From an uncultured Lachnospiraceae bacterium (lineage in GTDB: Bacteria > Bacillota > Clostridia > Lachnospirales > Lachnospiraceae), in NCBI GenBank assembly GCA_947631505.1, contig CANRLR010000010.1:1-64000 (forward strand): a stretch of DNA of 64,000 nt, in the 5' to 3' direction. How positions within the stretch are numbered: the first letter of the stretch is position 1; every line of letters starts with the position of its first letter. A program made the translations under genes and the position numbers. Shown here one piece after another: positions 7,637 to 20,561 of the stretch. Under the pieces are notes generated by a model, which ran no database searches, had not been told where the DNA came from, and saw only the letters and a program-made list of their open reading frames with translations.

Positions 7637-8934
7637 TTAATTCATTCCCACAACCTTATCCAAGAGTTTTGCGGAATCCCGCTTTGCCTCCCTTGTGGCG
7701 TGTGCATAGACATTCATGGTAGTGCTTACGTCCGAATGTCCTAAGAGTTCCTGCACATCTTTTGGCTGCGCTCCGTTTGATAACAGGTTTGTTGTGTAGG
7801 TATGCCTTAATGTGTGGAAATGGAAACCCTCTAACTCCGGTACTTTCTTTGCCGCTGTCCGGCAGGCTGTTTCTACGGTGGCAGGAAGTTCAAGACAGCC
7901 ATCCCCCTCAGACATACAAAGGAGATTTCCGTATAATCCTCCGGCGCATCCTCTGTCATTCCCAAGCTGTAATACTCATAATGCACCCGATTTTTCTCTG
8001 TAACTTCCTTGTAGAAATTCCTGTGGTAGAGTTCGCCATACTGCATACGGTTTTTAAGCTGCTGTTTCCTTGTTTTCTTCAAGATATCAGCGAGGGCGTT
8101 CCCAAAATCAACTATCCGAACTTTCTTCCTTTTTGTCGAGCCGATTTCGTGCTTATGGGTAGCACCGTTGTAGCGGACGCTTCTTCGGACTGTCAGATAT
8201 TGTTCCTCAAGGTTGATGTCCTGCCATGTAAGCCCTGCCACTTCCCCAAGCCTGAGCCCTGTAAAATAGGCTATCTGGACGGGCAGAATTGCGTCTTTGC
8301 TGCGCTTTCCAAGCTGTGCAACCAGCTTTTGGTACTGCTCAAATGACAGCGGATTGACCTTGCCCGTTTCGGTGTCCGTTTCCTCCGCAAACAAATCCAT
8401 ATCGTCCTTTTTATGCCGCATGACCACATACTGCATGGGATTGAATGTAATGTACTGTTTCGGGAACACCGCAAAACGGAATGACTGCTGTAATACTGCG
8501 GAAAATGACCTTACATAGTCTTTGGAGTACCCTTTGGAAACAAAATCTTCGATAGTGCCGCCAAAAGACATGATATCCATAAACTGCTGTAAATGCCCCG
8601 AAGTAACCGTTTTGAGCTTCCGTCTGCTTACAGGGTGCTGCTTAATGCGGTTGATTGCCTGCAAATAAGTACCGACAGTGCCATTGCTGAGTGTCCCTGT
8701 CTTTAATTCTTCCTCCGCCCACGTGTCAAGCAACTGTCCGAGAGTGATATTGTCAGCCTTTGCAATAAATTTCTTGCTTTCGTAATCCTCCATTGCCTGC
8801 CTTAACAGCTTTTCCGTTTCACTCTTGCTCTCTGTTCCTGCACATTCTTTCTGTACCAGGTTCCCGCTTGCATCCTCCACATAGAAGCGGTAGTACCATT
8901 TTTTGCCTTTCTTCCGTACTGATCCTTTTGCCAT
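7637..8934 (-). pseudogene. int: Tyrosine recombinase/integrase with a frameshift
   Basis: ATG 8934 (AAAGGAGAAACGATT) starts MAKGSVRKKGKKWYYRF, followed by an AP2-like arm-binding N-domain, a SAM-like core-binding domain and the catalytic domain with Arg in YFTGLRLGEVAGL. The frame breaks at a C5 run (7903-7907). Frame one ends after FVCLRGMAVLNFLPP; the remainder, with HTLRHTY, LGHSDVSTTMNVYAH and the Tyr nucleophile, is in the next frame as ORF 7637-7915. One extra base restores FVCLR-DGCLELP and a protein of about 432 residues. If real, the break removes the HxxR-Y half of the active site and would immobilise the element; a homopolymer sequencing error is an equally good explanation. The gene starts about 100 bases after the XRE gene. 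Confidence 0.8.
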
Positions 8935-17060: not shown

Positions 17061-17123
17061 GTGAAAAACATGCTCGATAGCATATTTTTCGCACTACTAT
17101 TTGTGCCGAAGCACCACAAATAG
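17061..17123 (+). other. Possible 20-residue leader ORF overlapping a REP-C palindrome
   Basis: GGAGG at 17051 precedes a GTG that opens a 20-codon frame ([20 protein letters not shown]). Its first half is the REP-C palindrome (17061-17095). It has no Trp codon, so it is not a classical trp attenuator. It could be chance coding inside a repeat. Confidence 0.3.
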
Positions 17124-17202: not shown

Positions 17203-18246
17203 ATGAAAAAAATTATTTTGACTGGCGACCGTCCTACCGGCAAACTTCATGTTGGACATTATGTCGGCTCTTTGAAACGCCGTGTAGAATTACAAAATTC
17301 CGGTGAATATGATGATATTTATATTATGATTGCAGATGCACAGGCATTGACCGACAACGCAGACAATCCCGAAAAGGTCAGAAGCAATATTTCTGAGGTT
17401 GCTCTTGATTATATATCCTGTGGACTGAACCCTGAAAAATCCACCTTGTTTGTTCAGTCTTACGTTTCGGAACTGACTGAACTGACTTTCTACTACAGCA
17501 ATTTAGTTACGGTTTCCCGTCTGAAACGTAATCCTACCGTAAAGTCCGAAATTTCTCTTCGCGGCTTTCATTCAAGTATTCCGGTCGGATTTTTTACCTA
17601 TCCAATCAGTCAGGCTGCTGATATTACTGCTTTCAAGGCAACAACAGTGCCAGTTGGCGAAGACCAGCTTCCGATGATTGAACAGACGAGGGAAATTGTC
17701 CGCAGCTTTAACTCCACGTATGACGAGGTATTGGTAGAGCCTAATGTCCTTCTTCCTGACAATCAGGCCTGTATGCGTTTGCCAGGTACTGACGGAAAAG
17801 CAAAAATGAGTAAATCTCTTGGAAACTGCATTTATTTGTCGGATGAACCGGAAGATATCCGCAAGAAAATCATGAGTATGTATACAGATCCTGACCATAT
17901 CCGAATTGAAGATCCGGGTAAACTGGAAGGCAACACGGTATTTACTTATTTGGATGCTTTTTGCAGGGATGATATGTTTGCAGAATATCTGCCGGAATAT
18001 AGCTGCCTTCAGGAATTAAAGGACCACTATACCCGCGGCGGTCTCGGCGATGTGAAGGTAAAGAAATTCTTGTATGCTGTTCTCATGGAGGAACTTTCTC
18101 CTATTCAGGCAAGAAGAAAGGAATTGGAAAAGGATATTCCGGCAATTATGGATATTCTTCATCAAGGAAGCAGGAAGGCTAAAGAAGTGGCAGCCCAGAC
18201 ATTAGAAGAGGTGAAAAAAGCCATGAAAATTAATTACTTTGATTAA
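17203..18246 (+). CDS. trpS: Tryptophanyl-tRNA synthetase
   Basis: The start is ATG 17203 (GGAGGATATC), not the track's 17101, which reads through the leader hairpins. This 347-residue class I synthetase has the HIGH-type motif [12 protein letters not shown] near residue 9 and KMSKS in [12 protein letters not shown] near 200; length is typical. It charges tRNA-Trp with tryptophan. A hairpin (CATGG/CCATG) and the terminator at 18302 follow, so it is a single-gene unit with its own promoter. Some TrpRS come in two copies with one antibiotic-resistant; one copy cannot tell which this is. Confidence 0.95.
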
Positions 18247-18343: not shown

Positions 18344-19168
18344 TCATATAGAAAAGAGGTATGCATATTTTGCCATCTGTTTTACTATAATATCATAGAT
18401 TCTTTCTTTTATATTCGGCGGATAATTTTTTTCACTATCTAAGAGTTTTCGGACATCTTTTTTGCTAAATCTGAATATAAGCTGCTGCCCATACAATTGT
18501 TCCACTGCGTCAAGCTGTTTGTCAAAATCCCTGCAGAATGTCTTTGGCTCTACCTCTGACATTAGTGTCCGTATATCTATGTCCATTGGGTAATCCAGCG
18601 TGGTATCAGACAGCAGGGAACTTCCATTATCAAAAATCGGGCAATACCGGAATTCTTCTTTCTCATCCATCAGTACCGCAATGTTATGAGTGTGCCGGTC
18701 CTCATTCAGGAAAAAAGCATCTAATGTCAAAAGCTGACTCATATATACTCCAAATTTTTTTAACCCAGTAATACGGATTGTCTGATTTACTAAAAACTGA
18801 ATTCTCTCCGAAATTCCCTCTAGTGAATAAATGCACTGGTTCAGACTTTTCCCGTACTGTGTTTGAAACAAACGCTCCAACGTCATAAGTTTCCAACCAT
18901 TTGGAAGAAAATTTTTACTGACACATCCCAAATAAGTCTGGTGCCTATATCGAATAGTTTCTGTTTCATATAAAATATACTCCTGTTCGTTGAGTGACGA
19001 TAAAGCCAACAAATGAGATACCATATATTCTGCCAGACCTTCATAACCGGTATAATCTGCTTTATACCAATCTTCGCTTTCCGCAAGCCATTTTAACTGA
19101 TTCCCTTTCGATGACTGCCGCTCTTCTTTTTGCATATTTTTCTCAAACAACGTTACCACTGTCATCAC
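18344..19168 (-). CDS. HipT/HipA-like serine-threonine kinase
   Basis: This 274-residue protein resembles the kinase core of HipA. It has an N-terminal Ser/Gly/Lys loop (RQSSKGNQLKWL near residue 18), catalytic loop LNEDRHTHNIAVLM near 155, and metal-binding IFDNGSSLL near 178. The usual N-subdomain 1 of HipA is absent and is instead fused to the neighbouring HTH protein. HipA-type kinases phosphorylate targets such as aminoacyl-tRNA synthetases and halt growth. The paired Ser in the loop recall the autophosphorylation site of HipT. The gene starts inside the stop of the HTH gene (ATGA overlap). Many Lachnospiraceae carry such pairs, so toxin status is plausible but unproven; it is striking that trpS (the HipT target in E. 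coli) is the next gene. Confidence 0.8.
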   Translation of the reverse strand: MMTVVTLFEKNMQKEERQSSKGNQLKWLAESEDWYKADYTGYEGLAEYMVSHLLALSSLNEQEYILYETETIRYRHQTYLGCVSKNFLPNGWKLMTLERLFQTQYGKSLNQCIYSLEGISERIQFLVNQTIRITGLKKFGVYMSQLLTLDAFFLNEDRHTHNIAVLMDEKEEFRYCPIFDNGSSLLSDTTLDYPMDIDIRTLMSEVEPKTFCRDFDKQLDAVEQLYGQQLIFRFSKKDVRKLLDSEKNYPPNIKERIYDIIVKQMAKYAYLFSI

Positions 19169-19710
19169 CTCTCAATCCGAAGCCAAAAATCGTCCTCTGC
19201 CATTCTCCCTTGAGTTTTTTCAATAATCAGAATCGGATCATAAAAAGGAATGTTGATTTCTTTTAACATCAGTTTCATTTTATCCCTGCCTCTGGGGAAA
19301 CAACGTGATTCCATAAATTCTTCATACTGTTCAAAGGTTGGTGTCTCAATTTTCCCGAACGCTCTTTTCAGTAAATCGTTTGTGTAATTATAAATCCGAA
19401 CATCCCGGAATCGCTCATTTACATCAATAATGGTGCAGACATCGCTTTTGCACATGTACCAGATTCGCATAGAACTTTTCTTTTCGGGCACTCTCAGCTC
19501 CTGTTCTATATTGGGATTTTCATTCAAGATTTTTACCAGAGGAACAATCGGGCCAGTAATTGCTCTCTTTTCCGATTCCCAACGTTCTACGGTTTTTACG
19601 GACACATGTACAAAATCCGCAAAATCCCGCTGCGTAAATCCCAATTTTTTTCGCGCTGCTTTCAAATCATTTGCTGTCAGTGCCTCCGAAATCGCATATT
19701 GATTTTTCAA
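19165..19710 (-). CDS. HTH regulator fused to a HipS-like N-subdomain (antitoxin candidate)
   Basis: This 181-residue protein has an XRE-type helix-turn-helix in about residues 12-70 (LGFTQRDFADFVHVSVKTVERWESEKRAI), then about 95 residues (SMRIWYMCKSDVCTIIDV ... MAEDDFWLRIER) resembling the small beta subdomain at the HipA N-terminus, called HipS when separate. So HipB and HipS functions seem joined here, with HipT separate, unlike HipBA or three-gene HipBST. The strong promoter at 19744-19772 has a palindrome in its spacer, which the HTH would bind for autorepression. Translation of the kinase is coupled by a 4-base overlap. Confidence 0.8.
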   Translation of the reverse strand: MKNQYAISEALTANDLKAARKKLGFTQRDFADFVHVSVKTVERWESEKRAITGPIVPLVKILNENPNIEQELRVPEKKSSMRIWYMCKSDVCTIIDVNERFRDVRIYNYTNDLLKRAFGKIETPTFEQYEEFMESRCFPRGRDKMKLMLKEINIPFYDPILIIEKTQGRMAEDDFWLRIER

Positions 19711-19743
19711 CGTTTCCTTTCCTCCTTCTCTGAATTTTATATT

Positions 19744-19799
19744 ATTATACCCTTAAAATAAGGGTATGTCAAATAAAAACAACCCTTATTTTAAGGGTA
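19744..19799 (-). promoter_or_regulatory. Consensus promoter with operator palindromes for the hip-like operon
   Basis: On the minus strand, TTGACA (19767-19772), exactly 17 bases, then TATAAT (19744-19749) is a full consensus promoter. The spacer is almost filled by the palindrome TACCCTTAAAATAAGGGTA (19748-19766). A second copy, ACCCTTATTTTAAGGGT (19782-19798), lies just upstream of -35. Two cooperative sites in and next to the promoter are typical of HipB-type autorepression. Confidence 0.85.
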
Positions 19800-19803
19800 T
19801 AAT

Positions 19804-19836
19804 AAAAAATATGCTATCAAGCATATTTTTTACACT
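19804..19836. repeat. REP-C copy 2 (short palindrome)
   Basis: AAATATGCTATCAAGCATATTT with flanking ACACT matches copies at 17061-17095 and 38361-38391. Confidence 0.65.
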
Positions 19837-19982: not shown

Positions 19983-20561
19983 TTATTTTTCTAATTTACG
20001 AATCTGTGTTCCGATTACCGGGCCTGCGACAGCCGCAATCGCAATTTTCACTGCATCTCCAATTAAAAATGGAAATACGCACATTGCCAGTGCTGCTGCC
20101 ACTCCTGTTCCTGTCGAAAAACAAAACCAAATGGTTCCGAAAGTATAAGCGACGGCAGTTCCCACAATCATTCCGGCTGCCGACACTGCAATTCCCGCAC
20201 CGCGGCTCATGGTATAACCCTTTTCAATCGCAAGACCACATATAAGAATCATCGGAATAAACCCAATCAAATATCCTCCTGTTGGCCCTGCCAATTTGCC
20301 AAGGCCGCCTTCCCAGCCGGAAAATACCGGCAGACCAGCCATTCCGATCAACAAGTAGACAATATACGTTGCCAGCCCTCGTTTCCAGCCTAATACGTAA
20401 ATACTAATAAAAATTACCAGCATCGTTATAGAAATCGGTACCGGACCGATTGGTATCGAAAATGGTGCTAAGACACAGGTAATTGCGGCAAACAATGCCA
20501 TTAATACCATACTGGTAGTCGTAAATAAAGATTTGTTTTTTGTGATTGCTTCTGTTGACAT
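19983..20561 (-). CDS. bioY: Biotin ECF transporter S component
   Basis: The start is ATG 20561 (GGAGGAAATT), not the track's 20720, giving 192 residues and five to six membrane helices. Family stretches are IPIGPVPISITMLVIF and GMAGLPVFSGWEGGLGKLAGPTGGYLIGF. BioY binds biotin in the membrane and works with the shared ECF energy module, which is not in this window. Regulation is clear: a BirA box overlaps the -10 of its promoter at 20616-20669. No biotin synthesis genes are nearby, suggesting the cell relies on uptake. Confidence 0.93.
   Translation of the reverse strand: MSTEAITKNKSLFTTTSMVLMALFAAITCVLAPFSIPIGPVPISITMLVIFISIYVLGWKRGLATYIVYLLIGMAGLPVFSGWEGGLGKLAGPTGGYLIGFIPMILICGLAIEKGYTMSRGAGIAVSAAGMIVGTAVAYTFGTIWFCFSTGTGVAAALAMCVFPFLIGDAVKIAIAAVAGPVIGTQIRKLEK

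Follow-up and report, generated by a model that had tools for sequence, protein, structure and literature searches.

A two-gene module of an HTH–HipS-like protein and a short HipA/CtkA-like kinase in an uncultured Lachnospiraceae bacterium

We identified a two-gene module on the minus strand of the window (the whole stretch of 64,000 nucleotides that was analysed) that is likely a type II toxin-antitoxin-like system, in which a protein combining a helix-turn-helix (HTH) domain with a HipS-like lid would cap a short HipA/CtkA-like kinase and repress the operon. HipA-like kinases are classic persistence toxins. The module represents a common gut-bacterial form with inhibitor and repressor in one protein, and provides a clean two-protein system for asking whether capping of the kinase is coupled to repression of the promoter. 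The two open reading frames, the promoter, the palindromes and the convergent trpS were all found at the positions given in a preliminary description of this DNA, as judged from the ORF list, the sequence and TIGR00233.

Genes and domains of the module

The first gene (19165..19710, minus strand) encodes a 181-aa Xre-HTH protein with a TTG start and is preceded by the ribosome-binding site AAGGAGG (19721-19727, minus strand). Domain and fold matches assign residues 1-73 (19492..19710) to an Xre/MqsA/HigA2-like HTH domain (HTH_3, E=2.9e-8), and residues 80-181 (19165..19473) form a HipS-like (N-subdomain-1-like) domain, hereafter S domain, according to AF2, Foldseek and hhalign. The second gene (18344..19168, minus strand) encodes the HipA-like kinase, a short Ser/Thr kinase core of 274 aa. 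Three in-frame starts are available to it, namely GTG 19168 (4-base overlap with the first gene), ATG 19165 (1-base overlap) and GTG 19159 (5-base gap), and the 4-base overlap noted previously holds with the first of these but not with the other two. GTG 19159 coincides in the alignment with the start seen in most relatives ('MVELFE'), is preceded by the SD-like GAGAGGTGA, and is likely the true start, giving 271 aa. Junctions with -4 overlaps and with +2 to +7 gaps are both common across the family. A search of Rfam found no match.

The sequence motifs of HipA-like Ser/Thr kinases are present in the window kinase: the Gly-rich loop SSKGNQLK, K36, the catalytic motif NEDRHTHN (D157, N162) and the Mg-binding motif PIFDNG (D180). 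Among 49 homologues, the three motifs (SSKGNQ.K, NEDRH.HN and FD.G) are conserved or invariant, residues G22, K26, K36, D157, H159, N162 and D180 are invariant, and conservation is 90% or more at S19, the Ser57 equivalent, and at S20. The match of the window kinase to Pfam HipA_C is weak (E=0.0028, under Pfam's cut-off); 48 of the 49 aligned family members match this model. The AlphaFold model (pLDDT 92, pTM 0.90) is most similar in Foldseek to CtkA (7.8e-10), followed by HipT(Lp) at 1e-4, with HipA and HipT(Ec) within 1e-4 to 1e-3. A profile search of PDB sequences likewise ranked CtkA (6e-5) before HipT(Lp) (0.1), and the single sequence returned only noise from the same source. Comparison scores were 25 for HipT(Ec) versus 42 for HipA. 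CtkA of Helicobacter pylori (3akj/3akk) is thus the closest solved structure and sequence, but shares only about 16% identity with the module kinase in the Foldseek alignment. By sequence and model, the protein is an active-looking short Hip kinase. Because CtkA outranks HipT in both the Foldseek and the PDB profile search, it is nearest to CtkA and not specifically a HipT, which was its initial designation. In two related loci, L039 (kinase region 7983-8570) and L040:4404-5021, the kinase is broken or shortened (internal TGA; in-frame loss near the N-terminus) and the gene for the HTH-S protein is intact, which is what a cost imposed by the kinase would lead one to expect.

The AlphaFold model of the HTH-S protein (pLDDT 94) shows the HTH domain followed by three strands, three helices and one strand; this succession of strands, helices and a final strand is the one described for HipS (PMC10627512). 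Foldseek aligned this model with full-length Legionella HipS 7vkb_B at a TM(target) of 0.65, 3.6 A and a probability of 0.94, with a weak E-value of 0.2 that was obtained with the full-length HTH-S protein as query in a search whose hits were mostly HTH proteins. In hhalign, the S domain scored 34 against the HipS-like domain of HipN (here L164) versus a maximum of 22 among 267 random proteins, and this HipN domain itself passes Pfam Couple_hipA, the HipA N-terminal domain, with 25.8 bits. The S domain further matched the N-terminal region of the single-chain clostridial kinases L267 and L030 (probability 96-97%, P 2e-10 and 7e-9), a region that lies ahead of the kinase core, in the place occupied by the lid in HipA. 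Fold and controlled profile comparison therefore bear out the earlier proposal that the C-terminal part of the HTH protein is HipS-like.

Other comparisons of this domain were negative. The S domain gave no hhalign signal with E. coli O127 HipS (245 of the 267 random proteins scored equally high) or with a HipA N-domain, and nothing credible was found in Pfam, including the HipA N-terminal model. Its profile recovered only noise from the PDB (kynureninase, E 0.34), and the HTH-S protein as a single sequence yielded HTH matches and noise from PDB sequences. A PF13657 search over 150 genomes of the phylum matched three genomes, the genome of the window not among them. Hand alignment at a conserved Pro places Arg142, which is at least 90% conserved in S domains, at the position of Trp65 of HipS. 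The matches to HipN and to the single-chain kinases, together with the two branches of the Hip family tree (PMC8262856), lead us to infer from sequence that the S domain is HipS-like but belongs to the hipIN/hipL side of the family and not to the hipBST side.

Promoter, operators and proposed mechanism

The module is preceded by a promoter (TTGACA-17-TATAAT, 19744..19772, minus strand) that matches the sigma-70 consensus at 12/12 positions. The palindrome TACCCTTATTTTAAGGGTA (candidate operator 1, 19748..19766) takes up its 17-nt spacer, and a second copy, TACCCTTAAAATAAGGGTT (candidate operator 2, 19781..19799), lies 33 bp upstream. The palindrome core CCCTTANNNTAAGGG occurs twice in the whole 2.74-Mb genome, both times at this promoter, and the full-consensus promoter with one palindrome in the spacer and another upstream is as first described. 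Alike palindrome pairs, 32-34 bp apart, were found upstream of 25 of 76 related modules versus none in 20 shuffled sets; one of the pairs (L146) looks spurious, which leaves 24/76 credible cases with spacings of 32-33 bp, or about a third of modules with the strict pattern applied. The operator half-site covaries with residue 39 of the recognition helix, CCC occurring with K (27/27) and CCA with P or S (12/12). A tree of both traits indicates about two changes per trait, so that this covariation is not independent statistical proof and is suggestive only. From the arrangement of these sites, the HTH-S protein probably represses its own promoter through the operator pair.

A reading of the palindromes as terminators was dropped; the segment marked by the terminator scan, 19798-19782, corresponds to operator 2. 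Separately, a 25-bp inverted-repeat element, AAAATATGCTCGATAGCATATTTTT, is present in 17 genome copies at up to 2 mismatches versus none in a reversed-pattern control. Copies in the window are located at 17065-17089 (plus strand), upstream of trpS, and at 19805-19829 (minus strand), just upstream of the module operators, and the element looks like a dispersed intergenic repeat.

By analogy with HipS on HipT, the lid would sit against the N-lobe of the kinase, next to the Gly-rich loop, and block kinase activity. The capping contact may differ in detail from that of HipS-HipT, because the HipS wedge residues Trp65 and Glu63 are not conserved in the alignment of the S domain. HTH dimers would bind the two operators 33 bp apart, one of them inside the promoter spacer, and thereby silence the operon, and binding of the kinase would probably tighten this repression. 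Once the antitoxin is lost, promoter and kinase would both be released, and the freed, presumably toxic kinase would phosphorylate a target that plausibly belongs to translation, as do those of HipA and HipT.

Distribution, domain arrangements and relation to named systems

An alignment query of genome contigs retrieved 441 relatives, and a single-protein query retrieved none. In the best 80 kinase loci, an S domain adjoins the kinase in 80/80 and is fused to an HTH in 76/80; conversely, a kinase sequence lies beside the antitoxin gene in all 29 antitoxin loci. The module is widespread in gut Lachnospiraceae with a patchy distribution: of the 397 genomes sampled from this family, 37 encode the full-length HTH-S protein. 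Firmicutes contributed only 5% of the sequences in the Hip family phylogeny (PMC8262856). Among mobile DNA, relatives are carried by a single viral contig, by ten plasmid entries and by five entries labelled as phage.

At least four kinds of DNA-binding partner are joined to the S domain where it is separate from the kinase: two Xre types (the second in L265), a resolvase-type HTH (L041, L257) and a MazE/AbrB-like domain (L261:1270-1815, plus strand, upstream of a kinase of the same family). A stand-alone S domain is encoded upstream of the kinase in L043, L044, L047, L048 and L264, and downstream of it in L042 and in L272 on a Bacillaceae plasmid. One-chain forms are S-kinase (L267) and HTH-S-kinase (L030), and the N-terminal S assignment is weaker (probability 11-25%) in the single-chain L021, L023 and L029. 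These arrangements bear on the exchange of DNA-binding and lid domains between toxin-antitoxin modules. We consider it an evenly balanced proposition that Clostridia freely re-cut the Hip functions B (DNA binding), S (lid) and T (kinase) into B-S + T, S + T, T + S, S-T and all-in-one forms, and that the HTH-S form would bring the inhibitor of the kinase to the operator itself, with the 33-bp pair setting the geometry of repressor and kinase.

The same distribution can be read as that of an anti-phage abortive infection system, in which a phage product would remove the antitoxin and free the kinase. The patchy occurrence and the few plasmid and phage-labelled contigs fit this role, as do the match of the kinase to PDC-M03A of PADLOC (1.9e-14) and the weak matches of relatives' S domains to PDC-M03B, which differs in carrying a HIRAN domain (L164). 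To our knowledge, the candidate PDC-M03 has not been validated. The genes around the 80 modules are mixed, and we regard an anti-phage function as rather unlikely, although it is compatible with the capped and self-repressed toxin-antitoxin-like module and not exclusive of it.

Five Hip modules, hipBST, hipJS, hipIN, hipL and hipRG, have been described already, hipIN and hipRG being covered by PMC8262856. A fused HTH-HipS antitoxin was not found in the literature (open-access papers, with HipR known by description only); while Hip kinase modules as such are known, the fusion is a variant for which we found no earlier description in the open-access literature. The hipIN module (HipI kinase and HipN; PMC8262856) resembles ours in its short core kinase, in a two-domain partner that is HipS-like and DNA-binding, and in the profile match between the S domains. 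It differs in that HipN has a C-terminal HIRAN domain and is encoded downstream of the kinase, whereas the partner described here has an N-terminal HTH, the only domain that Pfam shows in it, and is encoded upstream; the kinases are distantly alike.

The hipRG module of Gerdes et al. 2021 likewise consists of two genes, for an Stl-like HTH antitoxin (HipR) and a short core kinase (HipG), and our module might be an instance of it, perhaps with a second domain of HipR that is in fact HipS-like. Gene order is the same and kinase sizes are similar, with 279-321 aa in the short Hip kinase families (PMC8262856) and 249-281 aa among our relatives. However, HipG is described as lacking Ser/Thr in the Gly-rich loop, where S19 and S20 are conserved here, and no Stl was among the top 50 folds for the HTH-S model, so that this identity appears improbable, HipR having been compared by description only. 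More doubtful still is a non-toxic regulatory pair, in which the kinase would phosphorylate its repressor partner or another regulator. The HTH partner and the restriction of the operators to the module's own promoter agree with such a pair, but the HipS fold of the partner domain and the strict pairing fit capping better.

The preliminary description regarded the module as a HipBST system re-partitioned into BS + T. The BS + T architecture stands, with an HTH-HipS fusion and a kinase without S, but descent from proteobacterial HipBST is not supported, in view of the CtkA-like kinase and of an S domain whose profile shows no similarity to that of E. coli HipS. With hipBST of E. coli O127 and Legionella the module shares the order of HTH, HipS-like domain and kinase, the HipS fold and a Ser at the Ser57 position. 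It differs in having two genes instead of three and in the Arg at the site of the Trp65 wedge, which is present in some but not all HipS.

The trpS neighbourhood

The module is flanked by trpS (17203..18246, plus strand; TIGR00233, 5e-74), a convergent neighbour outside the module, and on the other side by a gene that we take to be bioY-like (19983..20561, minus strand). The genomic survey proposed earlier was run, and it placed homologous modules in unrelated surroundings, the outcome that the preliminary description had named as refuting a trpS link: trpS was found near none of the best 80 loci (flanks up to 6 kb) and beside none of 29 antitoxin-centred loci (1.5-kb flanks), and the commonest neighbouring family, an ABC ATPase, occurred in 11/80. 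Conversely, trpS is conserved in the genus with 84-92% identity, and none of 29 other trpS loci examined had a module within the flank covered. In eight congener loci (L194, L195, L202, L203, L213, L214, L217, L218), trpS directly faces the bioY-like gene at a distance of 9-513 bp, and only the window genome, among those examined, has the module between them. Kinase-bearing congeners (G013, G023, G024, G026) carry kinase and trpS on different contigs. Since congeners have trpS directly convergent with bioY, comparison of these loci indicates that in this lineage the module was inserted between trpS and bioY and that its adjacency to trpS is a coincidence of the insertion place, contrary to the conserved association that had been suggested.

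It is accordingly very improbable that the module is a true HipBST with a clade III HipT, fused HipB-HipS and a kinase that phosphorylates TrpS encoded next door: its B-S-T order, HipS-like fold and conserved S19, and the universal KMSKS loop in the adjacent trpS product, which is the loop that HipT phosphorylates, speak for it, but CtkA and HipA are closer to the kinase than HipT is, the S domain departs from E. coli HipS in profile and at Trp65, and trpS-bioY sites are empty in congeners. TrpS as a target is compatible with an adjacency that is not conserved, but the adjacency gives it no support and is no guide to the kinase target. In one related locus, L032, a methionyl-tRNA-synthetase-like gene lies about 0.3 kb upstream of the antitoxin gene; as a single case, this neighbourhood is probably due to chance.
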